In this document: one piece after another, positions 14,950 through 30,862 of the stretch
Numbering within the stretch: the first letter of the stretch is position 1
Layout: each line of letters starts with the position of its first letter
DNA from: Flavobacterium sp. IB48
GTDB taxonomy: Bacteria; Bacteroidota; Bacteroidia; Flavobacteriales; Flavobacteriaceae
NCBI RefSeq assembly: GCF_016405855.1
Contig: NZ_JAEFCA010000001.1
Span: forward strand, 1,154,840-1,218,839
Direction of reading: 5' to 3'
DNA length: 64,000 nucleotides
Position numbers and translations under genes: made by a program
The notes under the pieces: generated by a model
Told to the model about the DNA's origin: nothing
The model's database searches: none
Seen by the model: the letters and a program-made list of their open reading frames with translations, nothing else

Positions 14950-15912
14950 ATGTCAAAAAATAACAAGAAAAAACACAAAAAAGAGGAAAGAGATGATAAT
15001 GATTTAAAAAAATTAACTAAAAAGGAATTGTTACATCGGGCAAAAAAATTTTCTGAGCAATATTGTGTTGGAGACGATAAGAACTTCACATTAAAAGGTA
15101 AACCAACTTCTTATGCTATAGAAAATGACAATATCTCGGTTCGGAAAACATTAAAAATGGGAGTTAAGGCTCTAGCTGCCATGCAGGATATTTTGTATGC
15201 CCAAGATAAGTGGTCTGTTCTTATTATATTTCAAGCTATGGATGCTGCTGGAAAAGATGGTGCTATAAAGCATGTAATGTCAGGAATAAATCCGCAGGGT
15301 TGTCAGGTTTCTTCTTTTAAAGGACCAAGCTCAGAAGAATTAGATCATGATTATTTATGGCGTTGTCAAAAACACCTTCCAGAAAGAGGCCGAATAGGAA
15401 TCTTTAATCGTTCTTACTATGAAGAAGTCTTGGTGGTTCGTGTTCATGAACAAATATTGAGAGGGCAAAAACTTCCTGAGAAATTGATTACCAAAGACAT
15501 TTGGGATAATCGTTTTGAAGACATTCGAAACTTTGAAAAATATCTGAGTAGAAACGGAACCGTTGTCATTAAGTTTTTTCTAAATGTTTCTAAAGAAGAA
15601 CAAAAAAGAAGATTTATTGAAAGAGTTGATAATCCAGATAAAAACTGGAAATTCAGTGCAGCCGATGCCAAAGAGCGAGGCTATTGGGATGATTATATGC
15701 ATGCGTATGAGGAATTAATTAAAAACACATCGACCAAAAAATCGCCTTGGTATGTAATTCCTGCCGATGATAAATCTTATGCCCGAATTGCAATTGCTTC
15801 GGCAATAATTCATGCTTTGGACGAAATGGATCTGGAATATCCTAAAGTAAGTCCAGAGAAAATTGCAGAACTCAATGAGGTTAAGAAAGCATTATTAGAA
15901 GAGAAAGAGTAA
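14950..15912 (+). CDS. ppk2: Polyphosphate kinase 2 family protein
   Basis: The 320-residue protein has the PPK2 fold: Walker A-like MDAAGKDGAIKHVMSG, FKGPSSEELDHDYLWR and the lid/Walker B region RGRIGIFNRSYYEEVLVVRVH. PPK2 enzymes transfer phosphate between polyphosphate and nucleoside mono- or diphosphates. The Lys-rich N-terminal 20 residues (NNKKKHKKEERDDNDLKK) look disordered. Class I, II or III (ADP versus AMP preference) is not resolvable here. Divergent from the efflux operon, with about 257 bp between starts and no obvious shared operator. Confidence 0.93.
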   Translation: MSKNNKKKHKKEERDDNDLKKLTKKELLHRAKKFSEQYCVGDDKNFTLKGKPTSYAIENDNISVRKTLKMGVKALAAMQDILYAQDKWSVLIIFQAMDAAGKDGAIKHVMSGINPQGCQVSSFKGPSSEELDHDYLWRCQKHLPERGRIGIFNRSYYEEVLVVRVHEQILRGQKLPEKLITKDIWDNRFEDIRNFEKYLSRNGTVVIKFFLNVSKEEQKRRFIERVDNPDKNWKFSAADAKERGYWDDYMHAYEELIKNTSTKKSPWYVIPADDKSYARIAIASAIIHALDEMDLEYPKVSPEKIAELNEVKKALLEEKE

Positions 15913-15975
15913 CCTTTTGCAACTATAAACATTCATTTATAATTGTGAATTAGTACTATCTTAATCTTTTTTAAT

Positions 15976-17652
15976 ATGATTTCTAAGCTTTTACCCTCAC
16001 TAGATTGGATTAAAAATTATGAAAAACAGAATTTCAAAAGAGATTTCATTGCAGGAGTAACTCTTGCCGCTTACGGAATTCCTGTTTCTCTTGCCTATGC
16101 AACTCTTGCAGGTTTACCTCCTCAATATGGAATTTACGGATACCTCATTGGCGGCATATTTTATGCTTTGTTAGGATCCAGCAGACAGCTTGCGATAGGT
16201 CCAACTTCTGCAATTTCTTTATTGGTTGGAACTACTATTGCAAGTATGGCAAATGGCGATGTAGAACGCTGGTCTGAAATCGCATCACTTACGGCATTAG
16301 TATTTGCTGGAATGGCCATTGTTGCCTATTTGCTGAGGTTAAGTGGAATTATTAATTTTATTAGTGAAACCGTTTTGGTTGGATTCAAAGCAGGCGCGGC
16401 GATTACTATCGCTTTGACACAATTGCCGAAATTATTTGGAGTTAAAGGCGGCGGGGATAATTTCTTGGAACGAATTGTTATTCTTTTTCATCAAATTCCA
16501 GATATGAATACAGCTGTTTTTATTTTTGGAATAATTGCTATTCTGATATTAATTATAGGAGAAAAAATAGCACCGCAGTTTCCAGTTGCAATAGTAATTG
16601 TCATTTTATCTATTATTCTTATTTCGGCTACATCATTACAATATGCCGAATTCAATACAGTTGGAATTATTCCGACTGGTCTTCCTGAATTTCATCTGCC
16701 CTCACTTCGGATTCGAGATGTTGACGGAGTTTTACCGCTTGCGATGGCTTGTTTTTTATTGTCTTATATAGAAAGCGTTTCTGCTGGACGAACCTTAGCA
16801 CAAAAAAACGGATATGTTATCGATCCGCGTCAGGAACTTCTGGCACTTGGAGTTGCAAATGCTGCCGTTTCATTCGGACACGGTTATCCTGTTGCGGGCG
16901 GTTTGTCGCAATCAGCTGTAAACGATGCTGCGGGTGCGAAAACGCCATTGTCGCTTTTGTTTGCTTCGAGTGCAATTGCTTGCTGTCTCTTGTTTTTAAC
17001 AGGATATCTTCAAAATCTGCCAACCGTAATTTTGGCCGCCATTGTTCTAGTAGCGATAAGAGGGCTTTTTGATTGGAAAGAAATGAGACATCTTTATAAA
17101 ATAAACAAACAAGAATTTGCTGTAGTTATGGTTGCGCTTGCCGGAGTATTAATCTGGGGAATTCTCGCGGGAGTTTTGCTTGCAACACTCGTAACCTTGT
17201 TGCTTTTATTAAAAGCGGCTTCAAAACCTCATGTAGCTTTTTTAGGAAGAATTCCAGGAACGAGAATTTACACCGATTTGAAAAGACATCCTGACAATGA
17301 GATAATGGAAAACATATTGATCGTAAGAGTAGAATCGTCCATCTTTTATTTCAATGCTGAGTACATTAAAGAACGGATTTTGGAAAAAATCTACAGCGAA
17401 GAAGATTCTTTAAAAACAGTAATATTAGATCTCAACTCTTCACCTCGCATCGATATTGCTGGCGCACGTTTCTTAAAGAATTTATTTATTGATTTGCAGG
17501 CAAAGAACATTACTCTAAAAATAGCCGAAGCCCGTTCAGATGTCAGGGATAGCCTGCGTGCAGAAAATCTTGAAATTCTCTTTGGGCATATTAGCCGTTC
17601 TGTTTCTGTAGATGATTTAGTGCAGCATACTTTACAAGATAATAGTAAGTAA
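15976..17652 (+). CDS. SulP family anion transporter with STAS domain
   Basis: The 558-residue protein has the SulP N-terminal motif (AGVTLAAYGIPVSLAYATLAGLPPQYGIYG), about twelve hydrophobic segments, and a C-terminal cytoplasmic STAS domain (from about residue 440; VESSIFYFNAEYIKERI ... ILDLNSSPRIDIAGARFL). The SulP family moves sulfate, bicarbonate or dicarboxylates. It lies 63 bp after ppk2 on the same strand, but no sulfate-assimilation gene is near, so the substrate is open. Confidence 0.93.
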   Translation: MISKLLPSLDWIKNYEKQNFKRDFIAGVTLAAYGIPVSLAYATLAGLPPQYGIYGYLIGGIFYALLGSSRQLAIGPTSAISLLVGTTIASMANGDVERWSEIASLTALVFAGMAIVAYLLRLSGIINFISETVLVGFKAGAAITIALTQLPKLFGVKGGGDNFLERIVILFHQIPDMNTAVFIFGIIAILILIIGEKIAPQFPVAIVIVILSIILISATSLQYAEFNTVGIIPTGLPEFHLPSLRIRDVDGVLPLAMACFLLSYIESVSAGRTLAQKNGYVIDPRQELLALGVANAAVSFGHGYPVAGGLSQSAVNDAAGAKTPLSLLFASSAIACCLLFLTGYLQNLPTVILAAIVLVAIRGLFDWKEMRHLYKINKQEFAVVMVALAGVLIWGILAGVLLATLVTLLLLLKAASKPHVAFLGRIPGTRIYTDLKRHPDNEIMENILIVRVESSIFYFNAEYIKERILEKIYSEEDSLKTVILDLNSSPRIDIAGARFLKNLFIDLQAKNITLKIAEARSDVRDSLRAENLEILFGHISRSVSVDDLVQHTLQDNSK

Positions 17653-17811
17653 AAAGTGAAGTTCTCTAGTAATACAATCTTTTTTTCATGTTAAAAAAAT
17701 CAGATAATTAAAGGAAGATCATTTTTAATCTCAAAATAAACCCTAAATTTGCCGCAGATTTAGAGAAAAATCTAAAAAAACATATATTCTTAACTTAAAA
17801 CTGTTTATAGC

Positions 17812-19170
17812 ATGCAACTGTATAACACTTTGAGCGCAGAAGAAAGAGCCATCATGATCGATGATGCAGGTAAACAACGACTAACGTTGTCTTTCTATGC
17901 GTATGCCAAAATTCAAGATCCACAAAAATTTCGTAATGACTTATTCGTAGCCTGGAATGCCCTAGATGCATTAGGCCGAATTTATGTTGCCAATGAAGGA
18001 ATAAATGCTCAAATGAGTATTCCTGAAGAAAATTTGGAGGCTTTTAGAACAACTCTTGAAGCTTATGATTTCATGAAAGGCATTCGTTTGAATGAAGCTG
18101 TAGAGCATGATGACCATTCGTTTTTAAAATTAACAATCAAAGTTCGTCACAAAATCGTTGCCGATGGATTAAACGACGAAACTTTTGATGTTACCAATAT
18201 AGGCGTTCACTTGAAAGCCAAAGAATTCAATGAGATTTTAGATGATCCGAATACGATTGTAGTTGATTTTAGAAATCACTACGAAAGTGAAGTTGGACAT
18301 TTTAAAAATGCGATTACTCCAGATGTTGAGACATTTAGAGAAAGTTTGCCAATTATCAACGATCAGCTTAAAGATCACAAAGACGATAAAAATCTGGTAA
18401 TGTATTGTACTGGAGGAATTCGTTGCGAAAAAGCGAGTGCTTATTTCAAACACCAAGGTTTCAAAAACGTGTATCAGTTAGAAGGTGGAATTATTAATTA
18501 CGCTAAACAATTGAAAGAAGAAGGTTTAGAAAGCAAATTCATTGGAAAAAACTTCGTATTTGATAATCGTCTAGGCGAAAGAATCACGGATGATATTATA
18601 TCACAATGTCACCAATGCGGAAAACCTTGCGATAATCACACGAATTGCGAAAATGACGGCTGTCATTTATTGTTTATTCAGTGTGATGATTGTAAAGCAG
18701 CAATGGAAAACTGCTGTTCTACAGAATGTTTAGAAATCATCCACATGCCTTTAGTTGACCAAGTTCGTTTGAGAACTGGAAAACAAGTTGGAAATAAGGT
18801 TTTCAGAAAAGGAAAATCTGAAAACTTGAAATTCAAACATTCAGGAGAATTACCAGAAACTGCTTTGGCAACAGCACAAAAACAATCTGATATTCGTCAG
18901 AAAATAAAAGTAAAAAAAGTACTTCTTGGGAAAGCTGAACATTATTATGTAAAAGCGCAAGTTGGACAATTTACAGTAGAAAATCACGAATTAAACAGTG
19001 GTGATAAAATCTTAATTTCTGGTCCAACAACTGGAGATCAAGAATTGATTTTAGACAAAATCATTGTTAATGGCGCAGAAACTCAATCTGCTAAAGTTGG
19101 TGATAAGGTTACTTTTGAAGTTCCTTTTAGAATTAGATTGTCTGATAAAGTATACAAGATTTTAGATTGA
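17812..19170 (+). CDS. trhO: tRNA U34 hydroxylase TrhO with an extra C-terminal U32-type domain
   Basis: The 452-residue protein has an N-terminal ferredoxin-like domain (1-110), a rhodanese domain with catalytic loop C199-T-G-G-I-R-C205, and the Cys-rich rhodanese_C region (about 265-306, CHQCGKPCDNH...CDDCK...CC). TrhO makes 5-hydroxyuridine at tRNA position 34 using O2. E. coli TrhO is about 350 residues; here residues about 369-452 add a domain that aligns with the C-terminus of the next gene, trhP (by eye about 44 of 83 identical, ending PFRIRLSDKVYKI / PFRIRMSDKLYKI). That domain matches the U32-peptidase C-terminal type, and may bind tRNA or a partner; this is inference. Confidence 0.93.
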   Translation: MQLYNTLSAEERAIMIDDAGKQRLTLSFYAYAKIQDPQKFRNDLFVAWNALDALGRIYVANEGINAQMSIPEENLEAFRTTLEAYDFMKGIRLNEAVEHDDHSFLKLTIKVRHKIVADGLNDETFDVTNIGVHLKAKEFNEILDDPNTIVVDFRNHYESEVGHFKNAITPDVETFRESLPIINDQLKDHKDDKNLVMYCTGGIRCEKASAYFKHQGFKNVYQLEGGIINYAKQLKEEGLESKFIGKNFVFDNRLGERITDDIISQCHQCGKPCDNHTNCENDGCHLLFIQCDDCKAAMENCCSTECLEIIHMPLVDQVRLRTGKQVGNKVFRKGKSENLKFKHSGELPETALATAQKQSDIRQKIKVKKVLLGKAEHYYVKAQVGQFTVENHELNSGDKILISGPTTGDQELILDKIIVNGAETQSAKVGDKVTFEVPFRIRLSDKVYKILD

Positions 19171-19220
19171 ATTTAATAGGAGTGCTGCGGCATTTACGTT
19201 AAATTTTGATAATATAGAAC

Positions 19221-19251
19221 AAAGCCCATGGTTTCAATCGTGGGCTTTTTT
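19221..19251 (+). terminator. Terminator after trhO
   Basis: Hairpin AAAGCCCATG / CGTGGGCTTT followed by a T run, 50 bp past the trhO stop. It shows trhO and trhP are probably separate transcripts. Confidence 0.75.
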
Positions 19252-19285
19252 AATAATATGCTGCGAATAATTTTTAAAATATAGA

Positions 19286-19303
19286 CTATGATATATATCA
19301 TAG
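19286..19303. promoter_or_regulatory. Perfect 18-bp palindrome upstream of trhP
   Basis: CTATGATATATATCATAG is perfectly palindromic and ends 21 bp before the -7 element at 19325-19332, so it covers or abuts the -33 region. It looks like a dimeric regulator site. No regulator is encoded next to it. Confidence 0.5.
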
Positions 19304-19324
19304 AAATCTAATCTATACCCACAT

Positions 19325-19332
19325 TAATTTTG
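19325..19332 (+). promoter_or_regulatory. -7 promoter element of trhP
   Basis: TAATTTTG matches TANNTTTG, 22 bp before the ATG at 19355. Confidence 0.5.
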
Positions 19333-19354
19333 TCATTTGAATAATAAATCGAAA

Positions 19355-20596
19355 ATGACAATTAACAATACAATTGAACTCATGTCTCCAGCTGGAGATT
19401 TTGAGTCGCTTCAGGCTGCTTTAGATAATGGCTGTGATTCAGTATATTTTGGAGTTGAACAGCTTAATATGCGTGCTCGTTCAACGGTGAATTTTACAAT
19501 TGACGATTTAAAAGAAATCGCCAATCGATGTGAAGCAAAAAAAGTTCGAAGTTATTTGACTTTAAACACGATTATTTACGATCATGATTTGTCAGTTGTA
19601 AAAACATTATTGAACAAGTCCAAAGAAGCTAATATTACAGCTGTAATTGCATCAGACCAAGCCGTAATTGCAATGGCAAGATCAATTGGAATGGAAGTTC
19701 ATATTTCGACCCAATTGAATGTTACCAACATAGAAACCATCAAATTCTACAGTTTATTTGCAGATACAATGGTTTTAAGTCGTGAATTAAGCTTACGTCA
19801 AGTAAAAAATATTACCGATCAAATTGAGAAAGAGCAGATAAAAGGACCAAATGGAAATTTAGTCGAAATCGAAATCTTTGGTCATGGAGCTTTGTGTATG
19901 GCGGTTTCGGGAAAATGTTATTTGAGTTTGCATTCGCATAATTCATCTGCAAATCGTGGTGCATGCAAGCAAAACTGTCGAAAAAAATATACAGTTATCG
20001 ATCAAGAAACAGGTTTCGAAATCGAATTGGATAACGAATACATGATGTCGCCAAAAGATTTATGTACATTGGATTTCTTAGATCAAGTTATTGATTCTGG
20101 AATTAAAGTTTTAAAAATCGAAGGACGAGGCCGTGCGCCAGAATATGTGGCAACGGTAACCAAAACCTATCGCGAAGCAATTGATGCTTACTATGAAGGT
20201 ACTTTTTCCAAAGAAAAAACGGTAGAGTGGATGAAAGCCTTGGAAACAGTTTACAATCGCGGATTCTGGTCTGGATATTATCTAGGTCAGGAATTAGGCG
20301 AATGGAGCGATATTCCAGGATCTGCAGCGACGCAGAAGAAAGTTTATGTGGGTAAAGGAACACATTATTTCCCGAAAGCAGAAGTAGGGCAATTTAAGAT
20401 TGAAGCTTACGATATTAAAATTGGTGATAAAATCTTAGTAACGGGACCAAGTACAGGCGCTCAAGAAATGATTATCGATGAAATGTTTGTAAATGATATT
20501 GCTGGTGAAAAAGCCACAAAAGGAGACGATTGTAGTTTCAAATTGCCATTCAGAATCAGAATGTCGGACAAATTATATAAAATTGTTGAGGCGTAA
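19355..20596 (+). CDS. trhP: U32-family tRNA 5-hydroxyuridine synthase TrhP
   Basis: The 413-residue protein matches U32-family enzymes such as YegQ: ELMSPAGDFESLQAALDNGCDSVYFG at the N-terminus, the Cys-rich centre (SGKCYLSLHSHNSSANRG, then ACKQNCRKKY, then SPKDLCTLDFL), and a C-terminal U32_C barrel (about 325-413). TrhP acts in prephenate-dependent, Fe-S-dependent formation of ho5U34. A TTG 18 bases upstream is in frame; ATG is preferred. The stop overlaps the ferredoxin start (TAATG at 20594-20598), so a ferredoxin is coupled to it. The C-terminal domain is shared with the neighbour TrhO. Confidence 0.92.
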   Translation: MTINNTIELMSPAGDFESLQAALDNGCDSVYFGVEQLNMRARSTVNFTIDDLKEIANRCEAKKVRSYLTLNTIIYDHDLSVVKTLLNKSKEANITAVIASDQAVIAMARSIGMEVHISTQLNVTNIETIKFYSLFADTMVLSRELSLRQVKNITDQIEKEQIKGPNGNLVEIEIFGHGALCMAVSGKCYLSLHSHNSSANRGACKQNCRKKYTVIDQETGFEIELDNEYMMSPKDLCTLDFLDQVIDSGIKVLKIEGRGRAPEYVATVTKTYREAIDAYYEGTFSKEKTVEWMKALETVYNRGFWSGYYLGQELGEWSDIPGSAATQKKVYVGKGTHYFPKAEVGQFKIEAYDIKIGDKILVTGPSTGAQEMIIDEMFVNDIAGEKATKGDDCSFKLPFRIRMSDKLYKIVEA

Positions 20597-20826
20597 TGGT
20601 TATAGTAACATTACAAAGGGATAAGTGCATTGGCTGTAATTACTGTGTTGAGATGGATCCGATTCATTTTCAAATGTCAAAAAAAGACGGAAAATCGGTT
20701 CTCATTCATTCGCAGAATGCAAAAGGATTTTTTACTTTAAAATCTCCAAATCATGCTATTGTGGAAAGCTGTGAATTGGCTGCGAAAGCTTGTCCAGTAA
20801 AGATTATTACGGTTAAAGAAACTTAG
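20596..20826 (+). CDS. Small [4Fe-4S] ferredoxin
   Basis: The 76-residue protein has C11-x2-C14-x2-C17 (CIGCNYC) and C66 in AKACPVKII, the ligand set of a single 4Fe-4S cluster; C59 could be part of a disulfide, as in mono-cluster ferredoxins of the P. furiosus type. Its start overlaps the trhP stop by one base, so it is translated with TrhP and is the obvious electron carrier candidate for it. This partnership is inferred from coupling. Confidence 0.9.
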   Translation: MVIVTLQRDKCIGCNYCVEMDPIHFQMSKKDGKSVLIHSQNAKGFFTLKSPNHAIVESCELAAKACPVKIITVKET

Positions 20827-20844
20827 GAATATTTTAATCACATC

Positions 20845-20874
20845 AAAAAGAGCCGCAAATGTGCGGCTCTTTTT
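20845..20874 (+). terminator. Terminator after the ferredoxin gene
   Basis: Hairpin AAAAAGAGCCGCA / TGCGGCTCTTTTT, perfect 13-bp stem with a 4-nt loop, between convergent genes. Confidence 0.85.
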
Positions 20875-20914
20875 GGTTAAATACGTTGTGACAATTGTAT
20901 TAATGTGCTGTTGT

Positions 20915-22348
20915 TTATGCTTCTTCAATTTTTACTGTTTCGATATTCTCATCAATTTCAGTCCATTCTGGAGCTTCCCAAAATATAGCAATATGAAGAT
21001 TATATATTCCAATTGCGGCATAAGCGAGAATGCAGAAATAATAGAAACCGTTAGGGCGATCTTGAAATAAAAAGAATAAGAATCCCATAGCTAATAGTGC
21101 AAAACCTATCCAAACACCTTTTCTAAAGTATATTATAAAAATATACAACAAGACAACTAACCCACTTAAATAAATTAAGTCCTGACGGTTTAATTCAAGC
21201 CTTATAAATTTGTAAATGGCATAGGCACTCAGTAATAACAAAAGAAATACTTGAAAGTATGATTTCCTTTGATTTTCATCTTCTTCGATTTCCAAATATT
21301 CTTCATTCGTTAAAGGAGTGTTTTTGCGGAAAAAGAATAGAAAAGGAATTAAGTTAATTACAGGTATAAAACTCAATAGGTAAATCCAAAAAGGTCTTCT
21401 GCGTAAAGCAGCTAATTGCGAAAGCAATAGTTGGGAGAATAATAAATAGACAAATGTAATTTGAAAAATGACACGAATAACAGTATAGATATTGTTGTAA
21501 ATTCCTGAAATATTTGGACCTGAAGAATTGAACCAATTGACAGAAAACTGTTCTGTAAAAACCAAATGAACAGCAAGGAACGAAGTAAATAATAGAGAAA
21601 AATGTATCGTGAATTTTTTATAGCTAAGAAAAGCAGCTGTAGGCATTTTTATAAAATTCCTAAAAGAAAATCCAGCATCTAATAGAAATATAAAATAGAA
21701 AAAAGTCAATATCGAAAATAATCTAAAAAACACTACTTCATAAGGCCAAGCAGAGCCGTAAAAATCGCTAAAAGTTAATACAGAAACTGTTTTTTGATAT
21801 AAAGCCTCGATGCTTATAGAAGTAAATATTCCGATTAGATAGCCTAAAAAGCTGATTTCTTTACTATAAAGTATTTTTCCTCTTAAGAGACCATATAAGG
21901 CATATGGTTGCAAATAACCTAAAGCAAAATAAAGTATAAAAAAGGGACTATTAGCATAAGATTCGCGAAGATCTGAAAAAGTAAAGATTATGTCTGATAG
22001 TATTGCTGGCAGACACAGCAAAAGGAGATATTTTAGTTTATCGAATTTCTTTTCATTAACTGCTTCCCAGCAAAGAGCTATTATTATAATTAGGGCATTA
22101 ATTATTGTGTTCAAAATATTTGCCCACAAAGGTAGGTTTTGGGGCCCTCGAAAAGGGATTAGCATACCTGATAATCCAGATCCTCCAACACTAGAAACGG
22201 AAAAATTATTGATGATAAATTGTTTTATAATAAGAAGGAAGGCAATAATGGCAAGAGGGAATACGATCGCCTTAAACTTTGAAAAGTTAAAATGGTAAAA
22301 ATAATTTGTCTCCTCTTTTGGTTGGTTTGGTAAAACTTCGGTGTTCAT
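20915..22348 (-). CDS. Polytopic membrane protein of unknown function
   Basis: The 477-residue protein has a hydrophilic N-terminus (MNTEVLPNQPKEETNYF) and ten or more hydrophobic segments; one loop holds a charged stretch (TNEEYLEIEEDENQRK) and the C-terminus is acidic (WTEIDENIETVKIEE). I do not recognise a family. The frame is open 36 bp further upstream, but the ATG at 22348 is the more natural start. It sits at the left edge of the repeat-rich island, with the first 137-bp element upstream of its start. No catalytic motif was seen. Confidence 0.75.
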   Translation of the reverse strand: MNTEVLPNQPKEETNYFYHFNFSKFKAIVFPLAIIAFLLIIKQFIINNFSVSSVGGSGLSGMLIPFRGPQNLPLWANILNTIINALIIIIALCWEAVNEKKFDKLKYLLLLCLPAILSDIIFTFSDLRESYANSPFFILYFALGYLQPYALYGLLRGKILYSKEISFLGYLIGIFTSISIEALYQKTVSVLTFSDFYGSAWPYEVVFFRLFSILTFFYFIFLLDAGFSFRNFIKMPTAAFLSYKKFTIHFSLLFTSFLAVHLVFTEQFSVNWFNSSGPNISGIYNNIYTVIRVIFQITFVYLLFSQLLLSQLAALRRRPFWIYLLSFIPVINLIPFLFFFRKNTPLTNEEYLEIEEDENQRKSYFQVFLLLLLSAYAIYKFIRLELNRQDLIYLSGLVVLLYIFIIYFRKGVWIGFALLAMGFLFFLFQDRPNGFYYFCILAYAAIGIYNLHIAIFWEAPEWTEIDENIETVKIEEA

Positions 22349-22470
22349 TTGTGGCGGTTTGTTTTGGGTTAGTTTAAATCTCAAAATTTTGGTACGAGTA
22401 AACTTAACAAATTTTAATTCTTTTGAAATAAAAAAATGACCTTATTTTGTGTAGTCGTCGCTACTGCGCG

Positions 22471-22607
22471 AACCCGATAGCGCGGATTTGCAATCCGTGC
22501 CCGTTTTAATTAGCAAATCTTATATTCTCACAGTTTTTATTTTTTTCTCTCTTTCGCTTTGTTGATATACTTTACGTGCACGGATTGCAAATCCGCGCTA
22601 TCGGGTT
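22471..22607. repeat. 137-bp inverted-repeat element, copy 1 (complete)
   Basis: Terminal arms 22471-22500 and 22578-22607 are a perfect 30-bp inverted repeat beginning AACCCGATAGCGCGGATTTG. The core holds CCCGTT, AATTAG(C/T)AAATCTTATATTC and TTTCGCTTTGTTGATATAC, shared with copies 2 and 3. Each arm also contains an internal palindrome (CGGATT-TGC-AATCCG), REP-like in size. No ORF inside. Confidence 0.9.
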
Positions 22608-22710
22608 GGCGGAATGGTATTTAAGGATAAAGAAGAAGTAAACTTATACCTGCGCACCTCGCACAAATTAGCAAGGTTTACCGCAAGGCTCAAAAAATTA
22701 TTCTTTCTAA

Positions 22711-22751
22711 AATAAACAGCCGCTTCATTTACGAAGCGGCTGTTTATTTTT
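22711..22751 (-). terminator. Strong terminator hairpin
   Basis: AATAAACAGCCGCTTC / GAAGCGGCTGTTTATT is a perfect 16-bp stem with a 6-nt loop, placed 3' of the orphan gene at 22828-23235. Symmetric A/T tracts could make it work in both directions. Confidence 0.85.
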
Positions 22752-22827
22752 AAACCTCTTTATGCTAAGGCACAAGAACGCAAACGCTTATTGCTTGACT
22801 GCATTCTTGCGCCAGCGTGGAGAAGGA

Positions 22828-23235
22828 CTACTTCTTTTTTTTCTTATTATCACTGTTATTCATCCAGTCGTCAATTTGTTCATACTCACTAAACTTTTTA
22901 ATCCAGCCATTTTCACCATATATTTCACCACTCAGACCATCACTCATTTCCGCAAGATTAATTACTTTGCCTTTTTGATCCTTTGTAGTAAGCGTAAATT
23001 CTTCCTGAGACTGAAAAAAAAATAGTGTCTTAAAAAGGCATTTATCAATCATTTCGGTAACAATCTTTATCAAATCTTCTTTGGGAACTTTACTTTTTTT
23101 AAGTAGCTCAAATATATACTGATTTTCTTTTGATATGGAATTGTTGTTGACTATTTCGTTAAATTCAAAAATAGAATCATCTCTAACTTCCTCTATTAAA
23201 TATTTGCCAAATTCATTTAATAATTTTTCTTTCAT
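22828..23235 (-). CDS. Small acidic orphan protein (first gene of the cassette-like array)
   Basis: The 135-residue soluble protein (MKEKLLNEFGKYLIEEV...) has no signal peptide or TM segment, is rich in acidic residues, and ends in a short Lys run (DNKKKKK). A central helix-like stretch (KVPKEDLIKIVTEMIDKCLFKTLFFF) is followed by a likely beta part (GLSGEIYGENGWIKKFSEYEQIDDW). I do not recognise a family. Size, orientation and the Imm17-like neighbour suggest an immunity-type protein, which is inference only. It lies between 137-bp element copies 1 and 2. Confidence 0.72.
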   Translation of the reverse strand: MKEKLLNEFGKYLIEEVRDDSIFEFNEIVNNNSISKENQYIFELLKKSKVPKEDLIKIVTEMIDKCLFKTLFFFQSQEEFTLTTKDQKGKVINLAEMSDGLSGEIYGENGWIKKFSEYEQIDDWMNNSDNKKKKK

Positions 23236-23294
23236 GTTTATTGTTTTTTAGTTCCAAGGTATGTGGCTTGGTGATGTCACTTTTTGTTTTGCCA

Positions 23295-23433
23295 AACCCG
23301 ACAGCGCAGATTTGTAATCCATGCCCGTTCCAATTAGTAAATCTTATATTCTCACAGTTTTTATTTTTTTTCTCTCTCTTTCGCTTTGTTGATATACTTT
23401 ACGTGCACATATTGCAAATCCGCGCTATCGAGT
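23295..23433. repeat. 137-bp inverted-repeat element, copy 2 (degenerate ends)
   Basis: Left arm AACCCGACAGCGCAGATTTG (from 23295) and right arm GCACATATTGCAAATCCGCG (from 23405) differ from copy 1 at several positions; the core is nearly identical. It has the same orientation as copy 1. It separates two orphan genes. Confidence 0.88.
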
Positions 23434-23435
23434 CT

Positions 23436-23786
23436 TTAGTTCTGGAAGGCATCATATTCAAGATAAAACTCTAAAGCATTTAAAAAGACTTTTACATTTT
23501 TTACAATATCTAAATTGGGATTAATCTTGAATTTATTTTCAATTATAGATTTAAACATTTGTGTTTCAATTAATTCACAAACAATATTCTGATCGTTGTA
23601 TATCTCAGATGGAACATCACCTAAGTCTCCTTCCACAAATTCTGTCGTCTTTTCTTCAATAGTATCTAATACATAAAAAATGGCGTTTTTTAAATCATTT
23701 TCTTTTTTTTCTACTGAATAAATCATTCCATGTGGAAGGTTCTTATAATAAGTCAAAATATCTATGAATTTTGAGTATTTTTTCAT
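23436..23786 (-). CDS. Small orphan protein, faint DUF7716-like C-terminus
   Basis: The frame extends upstream into repeat copy 3, but the ATG at 23786 is the likely start, giving 116 residues: MKKYSKFIDILTYYKNLPHG. It is a soluble, acidic protein ending VKVFLNALEFYLEYDAFQN. The ending (AL..YL..DAF) recalls small DUF7716-type proteins found in toxin/immunity neighbourhoods; this is a memory-based, weak resemblance. The 3' end of the gene is directly against element copy 2 (stop at 23436, element end 23433). Confidence 0.68.
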   Translation of the reverse strand: MKKYSKFIDILTYYKNLPHGMIYSVEKKENDLKNAIFYVLDTIEEKTTEFVEGDLGDVPSEIYNDQNIVCELIETQMFKSIIENKFKINPNLDIVKNVKVFLNALEFYLEYDAFQN

Positions 23787-23812
23787 TTTGTTTGTTTTAT
23801 TATTTATTTGTA

Positions 23813-23947
23813 AACCCGATAGCGCAGATTTGTAATCCATGCCCGTTCCAATTAGTAAATCTTATATTCTCACAGTTTTTATTTTTTTTTCTCTCTTTCG
23901 CTTTGTTGATATACTTACGTGTATGGATTGCAAATCCGCGCTATCGG
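23813..23947. repeat. 137-bp inverted-repeat element, copy 3
   Basis: Left arm from 23813 (AACCCGATAGCGCAGATTTG), right arm 23921-23947 (GTATGGATTGCAAATCCGCG...). Same orientation and core as copies 1 and 2. Its right end is 3 bp from the stop of the next gene (23950). Confidence 0.88.
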
Positions 23948-23949
23948 AA

Positions 23950-24216
23950 TTACCATTTTGTAACGTTAAACATAATATAGGCCACAAAAAAGAAAATAAG
24001 CCCAACAACTACACCAACTATACGTGCTATAGTACGGCCAAAATACGCACTTATGCCACCAATGCCACGAAAGGTGCCACTTGGCGCATAGAGCCAGTTC
24101 CAATTTTGAATAGCCGCTACAATCATTATTAAGCCTAATGAGAGTGGTACAAGAGCCATCACTTTGGGGTGTTGTCTAAAATAAGTATGTGTCTTATCGA
24201 AAATGTCTTCTGCCAT
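23950..24216 (-). CDS. Imm17-like two-helix membrane protein
   Basis: The 88-residue protein has two membrane segments (about 20-37 and 66-83). Between them is N38-W-N-W41, then SAYFGRTIARIVGVVVG with F59-G-R61 and A64-R65. The pattern NWxW...FGRxxARIxxxxxG is what I know from immunity protein family Imm17, which protects against secreted polymorphic toxins. No toxin gene lies in the window, so it would be an orphan immunity gene. The assignment rests on motif memory and should be treated as probable. Its stop is 3 bp from element copy 3. Confidence 0.7.
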   Translation of the reverse strand: MAEDIFDKTHTYFRQHPKVMALVPLSLGLIMIVAAIQNWNWLYAPSGTFRGIGGISAYFGRTIARIVGVVVGLIFFFVAYIMFNVTKW

Positions 24217-24316
24217 ATTTTAAATAATCTGCTCATTACCAGGTAAAAATATCGAAAGCAAAAAATGAAAACTGCTTCTAAAAGTCATTATTTTATTAAA
24301 ATAAGTTTTAATAAGA

Positions 24317-24370
24317 AACCCGATAGTGCGGATTTGCAATCTGTGCCCGTTCCAATTAGCAAATCTTATT
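24317..24370. repeat. 137-bp element, copy 4 (left half only)
   Basis: Starts AACCCGATAGTGCGGATTTG and follows the element to about AAATCTTATT, after which the sequence changes; the right half is missing. It is in the same orientation as the other three copies and marks the right end of the array. Confidence 0.8.
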
Positions 24371-24381
24371 TATTCTCCCTG

Positions 24382-24409
24382 CTACTGCACAAATCCTTTT
24401 GTGTAGTAC
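24382..24409 (-). terminator. Hairpin 3' of the ankyrin operon
   Basis: CTACTGCACAAA / TTTTGTGTAGTA forms a stem of about 11 bp with a 3-nt loop, 9 bp beyond the stop at 24418. There is no strong T run, so termination strength is uncertain. Confidence 0.45.
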
Positions 24410-24417
24410 TTTTAACT

Positions 24418-25482
24418 TTATCTTTTGTAATTAGGCTCGCTTAGTAAAATGGGTGTTGTATTTGCAAGAACCCATTTAGTAGTGAGTTCGCATAAAAAAT
24501 TAAGTTCGTCGATTTCTCCATCTCCATTTTTGCGAACATCTTTTATAATTAAAGCTGCTTTTTCAAGTTCGTCATCAGACAGTGAATTATTTGAGGATAA
24601 ATGGATAAAAAAGGCATCTAGCATTTTTTTAAAATCGATATTCCAATTTCCACCACCATTTCTATATATTTCATCTCTTACCTTTCCTGAAATGCGCACG
24701 ACTTCACCTTGTACGGTTTTTGAACTGCCCTTTGACGGTATTAAGAGATCCCATAGTTCTTCAAATTGTTTTTCCCAGGTTGCGCCAGTTACAGAAATGG
24801 GAGACACACCGTCGTGTAAAATACGTCTTTTTACAGGGGGAACATTAAACATCTCATAAAGTTGGTTTAATGCATTATCTGTCTCTTCTAAATAATCTTT
24901 GTTGAAATTTTCTCTATGAAATTCAAAATCTTCTCCCTTTCGAACAACAGCATCTTTCATAGCTTGCGTTATTTCGATATCAGTTTTTAAAAGTATTTTT
25001 GATATTTCGGCCAAATTTTTAAGATCAATGTTATTTGCTCTAACCAAAGCACGTTCCAAAGGAGTTTGTTTGTAGGTATTCAATGCATTAGTGTCTGCTC
25101 CATATTCGATCAATTTTTTGACAGCATCTACATTAAAGCCGCTTCCACATGCAAAATGTAAAGGCGTATCTTTATAATTGTCTCTTGCATGTATATTAGC
25201 ACCGAGTTCTAATAAAGTTGAAATCTTACCAGTTCGTATCATTGCGTTTTGATGCAATGCGGTACGGTTATAAGTATCAACAGCTTCCAAATCTGCGCCA
25301 TTTTTTACTAGCCAAATTATAAGCTCATCGGGAATACCCCAAAAGCTTAACGCTGTTGTTTTTCCGTAACCGCCTCTTGCCTCCAATTCGCAGGTATCAA
25401 ATACAGCTTTTAAAGCTTCAACGTCTTTCTTTTCAATTAATTCTTTAAAATTTTTTGGAAGCGTTTTCTTTTTCTTTGCCAT
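24418..25482 (-). CDS. Ankyrin-repeat protein with an uncharacterised C-terminal domain
   Basis: The 354-residue protein has about four to five ankyrin repeats in residues 10-165 (TALHQNAMIRTGKISTLLEL, TPLHFACGSG..., TPLERALVRA). A linker (PVKRRILHDGVSP) leads to a C-terminal module of about 130 residues: WEKQFEELWDLLIPSKGSSK, TVQGEVVRISGKVRDEIYRN, GGGNWN. No signal peptide, so cytoplasmic. I do not have a named family for the C-terminal module; the tract LWxLLxPxxGxxxTVQGExxR looks conserved and I have the impression it occurs alone in small proteins. It is the last gene of the ankyrin operon. Confidence 0.82.
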   Translation of the reverse strand: MAKKKKTLPKNFKELIEKKDVEALKAVFDTCELEARGGYGKTTALSFWGIPDELIIWLVKNGADLEAVDTYNRTALHQNAMIRTGKISTLLELGANIHARDNYKDTPLHFACGSGFNVDAVKKLIEYGADTNALNTYKQTPLERALVRANNIDLKNLAEISKILLKTDIEITQAMKDAVVRKGEDFEFHRENFNKDYLEETDNALNQLYEMFNVPPVKRRILHDGVSPISVTGATWEKQFEELWDLLIPSKGSSKTVQGEVVRISGKVRDEIYRNGGGNWNIDFKKMLDAFFIHLSSNNSLSDDELEKAALIIKDVRKNGDGEIDELNFLCELTTKWVLANTTPILLSEPNYKR

Positions 25483-25525
25483 TCTTTTTATTCCTTTTTT
25501 AAATCATTGATCAAGATGTCTGATT

Positions 25526-26068
25526 TCAGATGCCTATTTTAGCATTTATATTATGCTTGTCAACATAAGTTTGTGCCACATTCATCAATTTGGTAAATTT
25601 TGCCTCTATTTCGCTTTGAGTTGAAGCATCAAAATCAGCAATTGCTTTTTCAATTTGTTCTGAAGGAGCTTTTTCGTCTTTCAACTTTCCGATTGGTACA
25701 TAACCTTCCTTCTGTTTCGCAATTGCATAAGAAAATAAGTCTTTTGAGGCCTGAAGAAGTTCTCTATTGTCTTCATCTTCCGGTATGTCCTGAATCGTTT
25801 TTAATCTAGCTTCTAAATTAGTTATATCGTATTTAAAAGAATCTTGATAAGTAGACGGAATCATTTTCTTTTGCGTTTCATCATAAACCTGAGGCTCAGA
25901 TTGAAGCTTTTCATTAATTTCCTTACTTCCAAAACGAGATAACAAATTCGAATTTAAAGCGGCAATTTCAAAGGTTTTTTCTGGAGAGAGGTTGGTGCAA
26001 GAACTAGAAACAATAGCTGTAGCGATTAATACTAAAAATAGAGTTGTGGTATTTAAGATTTTTTTCAT
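25526..26068 (-). CDS. Putative lipoprotein between ankyrin genes
   Basis: The 180-residue protein has a signal peptide with a lipobox-like IVSSSC (Cys24) and is otherwise helical and highly charged (IQDIPEDEDNRELLQASKDLF; EQIEKAIADFDASTQSEIEAK). It looks like a DUF3053/YiaF-type helical lipoprotein, but that similarity is weak. It lies 19 bp after the Ank-SHOCT gene and 43 bp before the last ankyrin gene, so it shares their transcript. Confidence 0.78.
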   Translation of the reverse strand: MKKILNTTTLFLVLIATAIVSSSCTNLSPEKTFEIAALNSNLLSRFGSKEINEKLQSEPQVYDETQKKMIPSTYQDSFKYDITNLEARLKTIQDIPEDEDNRELLQASKDLFSYAIAKQKEGYVPIGKLKDEKAPSEQIEKAIADFDASTQSEIEAKFTKLMNVAQTYVDKHNINAKIGI

Positions 26069-26087
26069 TTGTGGGTTTATTTATTAT

Positions 26088-27434
26088 TTATCCTTTTAAA
26101 ATTTTACTTTTCTCAACATCAAATTCTTCCGAAGTCAAGATTCCGGCATCTAGAAGTTCTTTTAAATCTAATAATGCTTTTTTCTTGGCTTCCATCGAAT
26201 TTGAAGCTTCAGTTTTTGGTGCTTCTTGCGGAACATTTATTGAGGTTACAACCGTTCCAGACGGAGCATATTTCAGAATCAGTTCTGTAATTTCATTAAA
26301 ACCTTTTACATTCGAGTAATCAATTGCTTTTTGTTCTTTTACGTTTACGATTGAAGCGTCGGCTTTGTTGTCTAATAAATATTTTACAACATCTTTCTTT
26401 CCGTTAGCGGCACTGTAATGCAAAGGCGTATTTCCAGATTCGTCTTGAATGTTAATGTTTGCTCCAGCTTCGATAAGCAGTTTCACCATGCTTAAATTTC
26501 CTTTTTTGGTAGCTACATGCAACAGGCTTTCGCCGCCATACGTATAAGAATCGTTAAGGGTAAAAGTAGATTCGTTTGAGATATTTGTTGCGCTTACAAT
26601 CCAATCCAAATAATCATTCATCGATGAAGTATCGTTGGCAACAGGCTTGCTATAGTTCACATCAACTCCGTTTTCTAAAAACAAGGCCACAATCTCTTTT
26701 TGATTATTCGCGCAAGCGTACCAAATCGGAGAATATCCATTGTTACTTGAAGTAAATACATCAGAACCTCTTTCAATCAATAATTTAGCTAACATTCTGT
26801 TGGTTTCGTAACAAGCAATTAACAGTGCATTTTCACCAGAATGATTAGTGTGGTTTATATCAGCGCCATTGTCCAGAAGCAAAGTCACCATCGGAATCGA
26901 TTTGGTATAACAAGCATAAATAAGTGGCGTATTTCCCTGTTTATCGGTTACGTTAATATCGGCTCCATTGTCTAAAAGCAGTTGGATAATTTCTCTGTTT
27001 AATTTTGTTGAGGCTAATATTAAAGGGGTTTCTCCGTTGTTATTCAGCAGATTAACATCGGTTCCTGCTTGAAGCAACTTTGTTGCAATATCGATTTGAG
27101 CCGTCTGAACGACCAAATGAAGCAGACTATTTCCGTATTTGTCGTTTTTGGTAATTTCTGCTCCATTTTCTAAAAGATGCAACGCCGTTTGTTTTTGTTT
27201 TTGAAGGCAAGCAAAGTACAAAGGCGTTTCTCCTTGATGATCTTCATAATTGATATCGGCACCATCTTCGGTTAGAATTTTTACGATATCAAGGTAACCT
27301 CTATGAGCTGCGTAATGAAGTGCAGTTCTTCCAAGTTCGTCTGTATATTTTACATCTACTTCTTTATTTTGAAGAAGTAATTCTGCTATTTTTCTGTTTC
27401 CGTTTTCGCAGGCAACTATAAATGACATTGACAT
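26088..27434 (-). CDS. Long ankyrin-repeat protein with C-terminal SHOCT domain
   Basis: The 448-residue protein consists of about ten consecutive ankyrin repeats, most with clean consensus (GRTALHYAAHRGYLDIVKIL; GETPLYFACLQK; GNTPLHYSAANGKKDVVKYL). After a low-complexity linker (VPQEAPKTEASNSM) it ends in a SHOCT domain: KKALLDLKELLDAGILTSEEF then DVEKSKIL. SHOCT is a short oligomerisation module. One repeat around residues 270-300 is interrupted by an insert (DYLDWIVSATNISNESTFTL). No signal peptide. Codon use and composition resemble the flanking genes. Confidence 0.88.
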   Translation of the reverse strand: MSMSFIVACENGNRKIAELLLQNKEVDVKYTDELGRTALHYAAHRGYLDIVKILTEDGADINYEDHQGETPLYFACLQKQKQTALHLLENGAEITKNDKYGNSLLHLVVQTAQIDIATKLLQAGTDVNLLNNNGETPLILASTKLNREIIQLLLDNGADINVTDKQGNTPLIYACYTKSIPMVTLLLDNGADINHTNHSGENALLIACYETNRMLAKLLIERGSDVFTSSNNGYSPIWYACANNQKEIVALFLENGVDVNYSKPVANDTSSMNDYLDWIVSATNISNESTFTLNDSYTYGGESLLHVATKKGNLSMVKLLIEAGANINIQDESGNTPLHYSAANGKKDVVKYLLDNKADASIVNVKEQKAIDYSNVKGFNEITELILKYAPSGTVVTSINVPQEAPKTEASNSMEAKKKALLDLKELLDAGILTSEEFDVEKSKILKG

Positions 27435-27463
27435 GTGTATTGTTTTTTAAATAGATAATCGAT

Positions 27464-28645
27464 TTATTGTTTCATTAAAAGTTCAACCGTTTTGATTTTT
27501 AGGTTGTCATCAGAGGCAAGTTTTAAAGCCGTTTCGTCTTTATCGTTGGTAATTTCTTTATCTGCACCGTTTTCAAGAAGTAATTTTACTTTTCTATAGG
27601 TTTCTTTTGCAGCTTCAGCATCATAATTAACATTATACGCGCAAACTTTGTGTAAAACAGTGTTGCCCTGATCGTCTTGTTCGTTAACGTCAACAGATCC
27701 ACTCTCAAGCACTGATTTTAAAATACCCGATTTTTTCTCAACAATATAATCCACACCTGATTTCGGATTTCCATAATATTCAGCACAATGATTTAAATCG
27801 GCTCCATCTGACAATAATTTTTGTAGTGAATTTAGATCATACTCAGAATCAGACATCATTCTGATAAACTCGGTAAGTAAGGTTTTTCCGTTTTTATTGA
27901 TATTATTAAAATTGGCTGATGATGATTCTGCTAAAAGTTCGTACATCTGAAAAGAAAACTGTTCAGCTGCAGCGTAGTAGAAAGCGCTGTTTTCTTGGTT
28001 ATCAGTTTCATTAGGATCGGCACCATTTTCTAATAAAACAGGCAGAAGTTCTTTTTGGTTTCTTTTCACAGCACACATTAAAGGTGTTGTCCCAACAATG
28101 TTTTTCTCATTAATGTCAACTCCGTTATCTATTAAAATGGTAATGTATTCTTTTACTTTCTCTGGATCAAGACCATAAGTATTCAAAATTGTGTAAATAA
28201 AATTTTCACCTGCATTGTTCTTATACTGAGTATTAGCTCCAAAATCATCAACTAATACTTTAACTATTTTTGGCGAAATTCCTTTTCCAAGAAAATAGCC
28301 AAGAAGGGTTTTATCGCTTATTTCATCGTTAATGTTATCCATTTTCGACATCAATTCCTTGAAAAAAGCAATTGATTCTTCATTATCTTTTAAGTATAAA
28401 GCCAATGGTTTAAAAATAGATTGATCAAAACTGTCCAATTCGTAAATATCGGTCTCTATAAATCCAGCTTTTATTAATTTTTCAATGAAGTCAATTTCTT
28501 TGGCTTCAATAATTTTGGACATTATCTGCGAAAAATTATTTTTCAAGTATTGGTCATTAAATTTTTCTCCGTTATTTAGGCATTCTCTGGCCTCGTCAAA
28601 TTTTCCCTGAAAAAGGAAATTTTCAATTTGGTTTTGTGTTTGCAT
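27464..28645 (-). CDS. Divergent ankyrin-repeat protein (first gene of the operon)
   Basis: The 393-residue protein has recognisable ankyrin repeats mainly in its middle and C-terminal parts (GTTPLMCAVKRNQKELLPVL; NSAFYYAAAEQFSFQMYELL; GNTVLHKVCAYNVN); the N-terminal 120 residues are helical but depart from the consensus. No signal peptide or TM. It starts the minus-strand operon with three further genes (gaps 29, 19 and 43 bp). Function unknown; ankyrin arrays bind proteins, and such arrays can act as immunity or scaffold proteins. Confidence 0.83.
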   Translation of the reverse strand: MQTQNQIENFLFQGKFDEARECLNNGEKFNDQYLKNNFSQIMSKIIEAKEIDFIEKLIKAGFIETDIYELDSFDQSIFKPLALYLKDNEESIAFFKELMSKMDNINDEISDKTLLGYFLGKGISPKIVKVLVDDFGANTQYKNNAGENFIYTILNTYGLDPEKVKEYITILIDNGVDINEKNIVGTTPLMCAVKRNQKELLPVLLENGADPNETDNQENSAFYYAAAEQFSFQMYELLAESSSANFNNINKNGKTLLTEFIRMMSDSEYDLNSLQKLLSDGADLNHCAEYYGNPKSGVDYIVEKKSGILKSVLESGSVDVNEQDDQGNTVLHKVCAYNVNYDAEAAKETYRKVKLLLENGADKEITNDKDETALKLASDDNLKIKTVELLMKQ

Positions 28646-28994
28646 TGTGATGAATTTTAAAATGAAAGATTAAGATTTGAAAGTGCCTAAAATTGGAATT
28701 TTTCAAACCATGTTGTAAGATAAAACATAAAAATGCCAAATATATTTCAGGATAAAAAGTTAAATTACCATTTTAGGTCATAAAACTTGCACAATAAGGT
28801 TTTTTGAAGAATATTTTAAAAATAAGAAGAAAAGTTGAGTAATTTGGTAAAAATTTGCGTACAAAAAAACGCGTTTTTTTATTTAACAGGCCTTTAGTTT
28901 TTATGCATAAAAAGCAAAATAAAAAAAATACTATCTTTACCGATCAAACGTTTATGAACTTAAGCTGCGTTTTGGCAGCACTACATATATAATT
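28646..28994. other. Divergent spacer with three palindromes
   Basis: Between the ankyrin operon and the ricT-like gene. It holds AAAAAAACGCGTTTTTTT (28863-28880), TTTTTATGCATAAAAA (28898-28913) and a small hairpin GCTGC-N6-GCAGC (28964-28979) in the ricT leader. TATCTTTA at about 28931 is a near match to the -7 consensus. No gene seen. Confidence 0.6.
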
Positions 28995-30389
28995 ATGGCA
29001 TGTACAAGTTGTTCAACCTCAGACGGTGGCACACCAAAAGGTTGTAAAAATAATGGGACTTGCGGCACCGATAGCTGCAATAAATTGACGGTTTTTGACT
29101 GGCTTTCGAACATGAGCCCGTCTAATGGAGAGGCGATTTTTGATTGTGTTGAGGTTCGTTTTAAGAATGGACGCAAGGAATTTTTTAGAAATTCGGAGAA
29201 ATTAACTTTAAGTATTGGCGATATTGTAGCAACTGTTGCTTCGCCAGGACATGATATTGGAATTGTGACTCTTACAGGAGAATTGGTAAAGATTCAAATG
29301 AAGAAAAAAGGGGTAAATTACGAAAGTAATGAGGTTCCAAAAATTTACAGAAAAGCATCTCAAAAAGATATCGACATTTGGTCTGTAGCACGTGATCGTG
29401 AAGAACCGATGAAAGTTCGTGCCCGCGAGTTGGCAATTCAGCATAAATTGGAAATGAAAATTTCGGATATCGAATTTCAAGGAGACGGATCAAAAGCAAC
29501 TTTTTATTACACAGCAAATGATCGTGTCGATTTTAGAATGCTGATCAAAGATTTTGCTAAAGAATTCAGTACCAGAGTAGAAATGAAACAAGTTGGTTTC
29601 CGTCAGGAAGCGGCACGTTTAGGTGGAGTTGGTTCTTGCGGACGCGAACTTTGCTGTTCGACTTGGTTAACCGATTTTAGAAGTGTTAATACATCAGCGG
29701 CTCGTTATCAGCAGTTATCATTGAATCCGCAAAAATTAGCGGGACAATGCGGTAAATTAAAATGCTGTCTAAACTATGAGCTAGACACTTACATGGATGC
29801 TTTAAAAGATTTTCCAGATTACGATACCAAACTAATCACAGAAAAAGGCGACGCAGTTTGCCAAAAACAAGATATTTTTAAAGGATTAATGTGGTTTGCT
29901 TACACCAACAACTTCGCAAACTGGCATGTTTTAAAAATTGATCAGGTAAAAGAAATTATCGCTGAAAATAAACAGAAAAACAAAGTTTCTTCTTTAGAAG
30001 ATTTTGCCGTTGAAGTAATTTCAGAACCTGAAAAAGATTTTAACAATGCAATGGGTCAAGAAAGCTTAACTCGTTTTGACCAACCGAAAAGAAAGAAAAA
30101 GCCAAATCGCAAGCGTAAACAAAATGCAGAAACGGCTGGTGTTGCAACTCCAGTAAAACCGCAACAGGATAAAAATGTAAATACTGCTAAACCAGCAGCA
30201 AATACTAATAATCCGAACAATGGCAATGCAAATAAGCAAACCAATCAAAACAATCCGAATAAGCAAAATCATAAGAAAAAGCATAATTCGAATAAGCCAA
30301 ACAATCCGAATAAGCAAAATTCAAATGAAAATAAACCGGCTGAACCTAGAAAACCAATAACGAATACTAAAAATGAGAATAAAAAATAG
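28995..30389 (+). CDS. PSP1-domain protein (RicT/YaaT-like)
   Basis: The 464-residue protein has a Cys-rich N-terminus (C3, C6, C17, C23, C28), then a PSP1 core (about 50-320) with LGGVGSCGRELCCSTWL and AGQCGKLKCCLNYELD, the cysteines typical of RicT-type proteins that in Firmicutes form an Fe-S containing complex with RicA and RicF affecting RNase Y. The C-terminal ~110 residues are a low-complexity Asn/Lys/Pro/Gln tail (NNPNNGNANKQTNQNNPNKQ), not usual in the family. The stop lies inside gldH (17-bp overlap). This gene order with gldH and PBP1A is, to my knowledge, common in flavobacteria. Confidence 0.88.
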   Translation: MACTSCSTSDGGTPKGCKNNGTCGTDSCNKLTVFDWLSNMSPSNGEAIFDCVEVRFKNGRKEFFRNSEKLTLSIGDIVATVASPGHDIGIVTLTGELVKIQMKKKGVNYESNEVPKIYRKASQKDIDIWSVARDREEPMKVRARELAIQHKLEMKISDIEFQGDGSKATFYYTANDRVDFRMLIKDFAKEFSTRVEMKQVGFRQEAARLGGVGSCGRELCCSTWLTDFRSVNTSAARYQQLSLNPQKLAGQCGKLKCCLNYELDTYMDALKDFPDYDTKLITEKGDAVCQKQDIFKGLMWFAYTNNFANWHVLKIDQVKEIIAENKQKNKVSSLEDFAVEVISEPEKDFNNAMGQESLTRFDQPKRKKKPNRKRKQNAETAGVATPVKPQQDKNVNTAKPAANTNNPNNGNANKQTNQNNPNKQNHKKKHNSNKPNNPNKQNSNENKPAEPRKPITNTKNENKK

Positions 30390-30852: not shown

Positions 30853-30862
30853 ATAAATATTT

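Follow-up and report, generated by a model that had tools for sequence, protein, structure and literature searches.

Insertion sequences of the IS200/IS605 family encode a Y1/HUH transposase, end in hairpins and leave no target duplication. REPINs and BIMEs are non-autonomous, mostly intergenic pairs of inverted REP hairpins that also occur at the flanks of a RAYT (REP-associated tyrosine transposase) gene, as set out in the consulted parts of the REPIN description by Bertels and Rainey in 2011 (PMC3116915) and of PMC6006769. REPs usually number more than 100 copies per genome, according to the consulted section of PMC2817692. Among Y1 proteins of Bacteroidetes, the consulted sections of PMC6006769 recognize TnpA-Y1 subclass 2.6, equivalent to Bertels group 5, and call its flanking structures "atypical." Two Flavobacterium genomes appear in the table of a paper on predicted REPs (PMC12306157), so that, going by this part of the paper, REPs as such were already predicted in the genus; the consulted parts of PMC3733652 and PMC2817692 do not mention it. 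In the open-licence PMC literature, we found no paper containing the arm sequence described below or pairing tnpAREP with Flavobacterium, and no title devoted to this REP family.

Here, we examine a window (the whole stretch of DNA analyzed, 64,000 nucleotides) that contains a short element with two inverted hairpin arms, followed within 2 kb by two full copies, both diverged, and a half copy (Table 1). Sequence comparisons make it very probable that this element is a REPIN-like non-autonomous mobile repeat whose REP family goes with a RAYT subfamily specific to the genus. The reading draws on arms that flank RAYT genes and on near-identical copies dispersed within genomes, namely REP-RAYT-REP units in one genome (G022) and a bare hairpin unit in another (G499). 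The element shares with REPINs and BIMEs the features listed above but differs in its mostly GATAG foot, its low copy number, its locus-specific spacer and the lack of a cognate RAYT in the genome of the window. As in IS200/IS605, a Y1/HUH transposase is combined with hairpin ends and no target duplication; unlike in that family, the ends are inverted copies of one hairpin and NCBIfam classes the cognate protein as a RAYT. A sequence-only reading of the window had proposed a pair of REP hairpins mobilized by a Y1 protein encoded nearby; it was right in kind and wrong in partner.

Hairpin arms and element copies in the window

Reading of the letters and a repeat search confirmed the perfect 30-bp inverted repeats that had been reported at the ends of copy 1, and the palindrome said to lie inside each arm (CGGATT-TGC-AATCCG) is present in both. 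The inverted repeats extend to 38 nt at 95% identity, with all mismatches lying beyond the perfect 30 bp. By chance, the window would be expected to contain about 2e-10 perfect 30-bp inverted pairs spaced at most 200 apart, and seven arm-like sites (at most 6 mismatches in 27) occur there versus none in 30 simulated 64-kb sequences. The ends of copies 2 and 3 are decayed as claimed, with 2-4 mismatches per arm. The accompanying suggestion that copy 1 may be the youngest is unsupported because, within the window, copies 2 and 3 resemble each other most: their spacers are 97% identical, that of copy 1 is 93-94% identical to either, and both carry one and the same changed left hairpin.

Table 1. 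Positions of element copies, arms and neighboring genes in the window
Feature	Coordinates	Strand	Description
Element copy 1	22471..22607	.	two inverted REP-like hairpin arms and a 77-nt spacer; 137 bases
Left arm, copy 1	22471..22500	+	AACCCGATAG foot, 9-bp stem hairpin, loop TGC, conserved G-T mismatch
Right arm, copy 1	22578..22607	-	perfect inverted copy of left arm
Accessory gene, 135 aa	22828..23235	-	no Pfam/NCBIfam match at E 0.01
Element copy 2	23295..23433	.	arms with 4 and 3 mismatches to consensus
134-aa ORF	23436..23840	-	sub-threshold DUF7716
Element copy 3	23813..23947	.	arms with 3 and 2 mismatches to consensus
Immunity protein 17 (Imm17), 88 aa	23950..24216	-	homologue in G042, no arms abutting there
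Half copy 4	24317..24377	+	left arm and ~30 nt of spacer, then another palindrome (24383-24408)
Ankyrin-repeat gene beyond half copy 4	24418..25482	-	

Elsewhere in the genome of the window (G000), contig C31 carries a diverged pair, C35 carries a diverged arm and a further arm lies at one end of C11; the genome has 11 arms in total. Near the C31 copy lies a transposase-like ORF pair that is IS3-like by look (L222:7-1451). The window holds other repeats as well. The palindrome TACTGCACAAATCCTTTTGTGTAGTA follows half copy 4, and a similar GTGTAG..CTACTGCGCGAA stretch occupies 22440-22470, just before copy 1; both are also found in G207. Three copies of a direct repeat, spaced ~106 bp apart, span 63523-63834.

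As single strands, the two arms of copy 1 each fold into a 9-bp stem (-7.9 and -8.1 kcal/mol), a stability reached by 1 and 2 of 200 shuffles, respectively, and the whole element folds as one long hairpin (-39.6 kcal/mol, z -10.7). An Rfam search returned only matches below gathering scores. The collected loci contained 329 arm occurrences, which reduce to 149 distinct 25-mers. Four of the nine stem pairs covary beyond all 1000 shuffles, in a test that kept 141 of the 149 distinct arms (8 dropped) and whose shuffles preserve column make-up, not relatedness. Across the 149 distinct arms, these pairs are GC in 98 and AT in 23 (9:21), AT in 125 and TA in 12 (11:19), TA in 131 and AT in 14 (12:18), and TA in 142 and AT in 7 (13:17). 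The remaining five pairs, in which changes are few or produce mismatches, show no covariation excess; in 120 of the 149 arms, pair 7:23 is a G-T mismatch. The canonical GT[AG]G tetranucleotide of REPs is absent from the foot of these arms, which is mostly GATAG, with GATCG, GTTAG and others also represented. Besides single arms, we found 30 inverted hairpin pairs with a short spacer in 7 genomes.

The cognate RAYT subfamily and its distribution

When a Y1 search of 12 genomes was set against arm positions, a diverged Y1 gene proved to have arms around it in G195, G036 and G499. The encoded protein, ~184 aa long, is a RAYT by model NF047646 (104.5 bits against a cut-off of 80, for the one member scanned) and reaches 27.5 bits against the IS200 model, whose cut-off is 55. 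Among the 72 subfamily matches listed down to E 3.0e-65, we examined 51 genes, made up of 30 loci returned by the search and of loci picked down the ranking, blind to arms. Arms lie on both sides of 38 of the 51 and on at least one side of 45; 13 are short of an arm on one or both sides. Among 22 matches in other RAYTs (37-52% identical, one of them contig-cut), none had arms on both sides and one had an arm on any side. The nearest upstream arm is in plus orientation in 38 of 42 cases and the nearest downstream arm in minus orientation in 37 of 41, which is mostly the polarity seen in the bare element.

By motifs in part, the subfamily appears to most resemble TnpA-Y1 subclass 2.6. WQ is present in 47 of the 51 genes, YIH[QN]NP in 38 and xH[LIV]H in 50, with N as the first residue in 9. 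The subclass as presented in the consulted sections of PMC6006769 is alike in size (~180 aa), in the motifs xH[LIV]H, WQ and YIH[QN]NP, which most members here carry, and in having flanking hairpins without GT[AG]G, a tetranucleotide also missing from the subclass 2.6 repeats, and copies elsewhere in the genome. It differs in its NHxH motif, the proteins studied here having mostly SHIH or SHLH.

Searching 299 genomes of the genus with a 145-base query gave matches in 132 of them (E at most 1e-6). Arms are present in 47 of 62 genomes that encode the RAYT subfamily versus 85 of 237 that do not (Fisher p 2e-8), and the other 15 of the 62 have no arm at E 1e-6. In a phylum sample of 296 genomes from 139 genera, 8 matched and all belong to the same genus, at a threshold that would miss diverged relatives elsewhere; the element is thus far known from one bacterial genus, probably Flavobacterium to judge from the closest named relatives of the Y1 protein encoded at 42168-42629. 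Of 12 chosen genomes, 11 contain between 4 and 28 copies of a 21-base core when up to 3 mismatches are allowed, and arm copy number in these 12 is far below the more than 100 per genome typical of REPs. The core was not found in G088, labeled "same species," and a reversed-core control gave 0 throughout the 12. One Tenacibaculum plasmid record contains a 29-base exact match. The genome of the window (36 contigs) has no member of the RAYT subfamily, its best match (E 1.8e-13) falling outside it.

The partner proposed from the sequence alone was the Y1 protein encoded at 42168-42629. It has in its favor that it is a Y1 transposase in the same window and that the palindromes near it, at 42743 and 42848, share GGAT..ATCC with the arms. 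These palindromes are real but belong to another family, with a TTTTAA-type center and a different hairpin core and foot (GTAG...GGATTTTAATCC). The protein is of IS200 type by NCBIfam, scoring 73.3 bits with the IS200/IS605 model (cut-off 55) and 25.1 with the RAYT model, under its cut-off of 80. Its closest named relatives are from Flavobacterium, and relatives carry palindromes other than the GATAG arm; a full scan of their loci at up to 6 mismatches found the arm in 0 of 80. We therefore rejected 42168-42629 as the transposase of the arms, a role that is very improbable for it. The kind of element proposed does have support, because a RAYT subfamily has the arms on its flanks and because near-identical copies, of RAYT units and of a bare unit, are found in unrelated surroundings and terminate at or near arms.

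With DHLH and YIENQKEHH, the 42168-42629 protein resembles TnpA-Y1 subclass 1.2, a group listed as without REPs in the consulted portion of PMC6006769. Perfect stems of at least 7 bp with a GT[AG]G tag nevertheless lie within 400 bp of the gene in 24 of 80 of its relatives, whereas 7 of the 206 control windows have them; many of the relatives also show arrays with CGGATTTTAATCCG at their loci.

Dispersed copies and placement of the arms

G022 contains three REP-RAYT-REP copies that are 96.3-97.6% identical and have unrelated flanks. Their homology blocks stop within a few bases of the arms in two of the three comparisons; in the third, homology runs ~10 bases past the arm on the right. G499, which also carries a RAYT of the subfamily (locus L226), has two unlinked copies of a bare hairpin unit, near 123 kb and 2432 kb, which are 98.3% identical over 175 bp and again have unrelated flanks. 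The right end of this unit is the outer edge of an arm, and its left end is formed by another arm-like ACCCGATCGCGCAGAT, which lies 26 nt beyond the consensus arm. We saw no target-site duplication beside the three copies of G022 or the two of G499. This bears on the proposal that the element could instead be a MITE bounded by 30-bp terminal inverted repeats and dependent on a DDE transposase. The perfect inverted repeats would suit such an origin, but the missing duplications, the fact that each arm is itself a covarying hairpin and the identity of the gene bearing these ends, a Y1/HUH RAYT, make a DDE-type MITE highly unlikely. In principle, near-identical copies could also spread by other recombination.

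Other genomes with more than one copy vary. The two RAYT copies in each of G271, G246, G257 and G274 are 76-82% identical with most homology blocks ending away from arms, and do not show recent movement. The RAYT copies of G077 are 87% alike across ~1 kb, and two neighboring copies in G070 are 93.8% identical over 726 nt; in G070 and G262, overlap between the stretches compared made within-genome comparisons uninformative. Elsewhere, element copies flank a single gene: two direct copies in G094 (124 bp, 97.6%) and two inverted copies in G150 (105 bp, 94%), in both of which homology stops at the arms, and two copies in G499 near 2669 kb (141 bp, 95%), with a left extension of ~28 nt. Inner spacers up to 10 kb apart have a median identity of 0.93 (13 comparisons, 12 at 0.86 or above and one at 0.47). 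The median is 0.49 for spacers elsewhere in the same genome (57 comparisons, one at 0.99, the G499 case) and 0.54 between genomes (365 comparisons), where values above 0.8 were confined to G000-G042.

We found no precise empty site for copy 1. Comparison of the C31 copy with 8 genomes, 7 of which matched, gave no precise empty site either, one side failing. At the aroC-bshA site of G150, searched in 299 genomes (30 loci read, 10 of them for gene content), there was no clean filled and empty pair because the neighboring genes of G150 were absent too.

Placement was counted for 126 arms in 77 loci, with arms less than 300 bp from a locus end dropped and ORFs called mechanically. Thirteen arms lie inside an ORF of at least 80 aa and 113 are intergenic. 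Within 30 bp after a stop codon are 36 of the 113, against a null of 8%, and none is within 30 bp of a start codon; 79 (70%) face the stop end of their outward neighbor, against a null of 63%. The excess is thus in closeness to the stop, not in the share facing it. Such clustering, together with one terminator-like score among the arms of copy 1, is what would be seen if the pair were mainly a functional 3'-end element, a bidirectional terminator or mRNA stabilizer kept by selection. However, only one of the seven arms in the window scores in this way, at least 5 T in the 8 bases past the stem occur in 14 of 399 distinct arm occurrences, and a terminator explains neither the arms around one RAYT subfamily nor near-identical units at unlinked sites. 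As the main role of the pair we regard this as unlikely; mRNA stabilization could coexist with mobility.

The variable locus and possible routes of element movement

The copies in the window sit between single accessory genes at a variable locus (20825-25525), with ankyrin genes on one side and, on the other, a gene that we take to be U32-peptidase-like. Gene content there differs among G000, G207, G499, G088 and others. The right ends of copies 2 and 3 lie 2 bp from the stop codons of the 23436-23840 ORF and the Imm17 gene, respectively; the first codons listed for that ORF fall in copy 3, so the true start probably lies further inside. Two stretches of the window, 15312 to 22528 and 24317 to 31149, have matches in G207, where a single half element joins them. 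The difference between G207 and G000 hence amounts to one interval from element to element, ~1.85 kb long and containing three genes. Both a loss in G207 and a gain in G000 would fit this difference. An Imm17 gene of G042 is 88% identical over window positions 23952-24318, with homology that begins at the stop codon, a few bases off element 3, and reaches just into element 4; it lies near an element array of its own, with spacers 85-93% like those of the window, and near a gene matching 25530-25999. Elements accompanied by other genes occupy the space between the two conserved flanks of the locus in G499 and lie beside the right flank in G150. No arm is present at this site in G006, G008 or G015. 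G088 has other genes and no arm at the locus; the empty-site comparison failed on one side, and a search for window positions 20900-22460 found no match in that genome. Presence/absence polymorphism exists at the locus.

Single genes split by inverted-repeat elements of attC-like size, often just after stops, also recall the attC sites of an integron-like gene-cassette array served by a tyrosine-recombinase integrase. Integron attC core sites read RYYYAAC...GTTRRRY; the ends of the element are, by eye, unlike these, and the arms belong to RAYT units. We hold an attC identity to be most improbable.

If the element is REPIN-like, as we favor, the HUH-tyrosine RAYT would recognize each hairpin and its GATAG foot on single-stranded DNA, cut at the outer edge of the arm near CCGAT/ATCGG, and mobilize, in cis or in trans, the DNA that two arms enclose. 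Insertion would occur without target duplication and often just after a stop codon, and the G207 comparison would fit the loss or gain of one copy-to-copy interval. The genome of the window has no cognate RAYT, so the window copies would be relics or would depend on another enzyme. We count against the REPIN-like reading this lack and the low arm number in the same genome, the arms in 85 of 237 RAYT-less genomes and their lack in 15 of 62 RAYT-bearing ones, the 13 of 51 genes short of one or both arms, the G271, G246, G257 and G274 blocks that mostly do not end at arms, the lack of a precise empty site for copy 1 and the absence of the GT[AG]G foot.

The RAYT ends may conceivably also work as a cassette system, in which a single gene between two REP pairs would be carried as the RAYT is, although we think this rather unlikely. 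Equally doubtful is the accompanying idea that accessory-gene arrays, including an immunity gene, would be assembled and exchanged in this way at a hotspot. Near-identical spacers within 10 kb, elements abutting stop codons, and different genes with elements at seemingly one site in G000, G042, G207, G499 and G150 fit both ideas. When arm-adjacent proteins were compared genome-wide with controls, no immunity family ranked in the 25 most frequent of 145 and of 212 families, which counts against the cassette reading. A genome-wide link to immunity genes is unsupported, and Imm17 in the window and SUKH-1 in G042 are local only. In a survey of 138 arm-adjacent and 106 control proteins, the controls being a rough set taken at round coordinates in 8 genomes and longer (median 264 versus 218 aa), arm neighbors matched fewer Pfam families, which suggests that they are unannotated accessory genes.

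The genus gains a defined REP family together with its cognate transposase, in a RAYT subclass for which the consulted sections of PMC6006769 list the repeats only as "atypical." Although RAYTs are described as domesticated, the dispersed near-identical REP-RAYT-REP copies indicate that this RAYT may still move as a unit. The cassette reading, if true, would provide an HUH-transposase counterpart of integron cassettes. Compensatory changes in the arms beside many cognate proteins make the recognition code testable.
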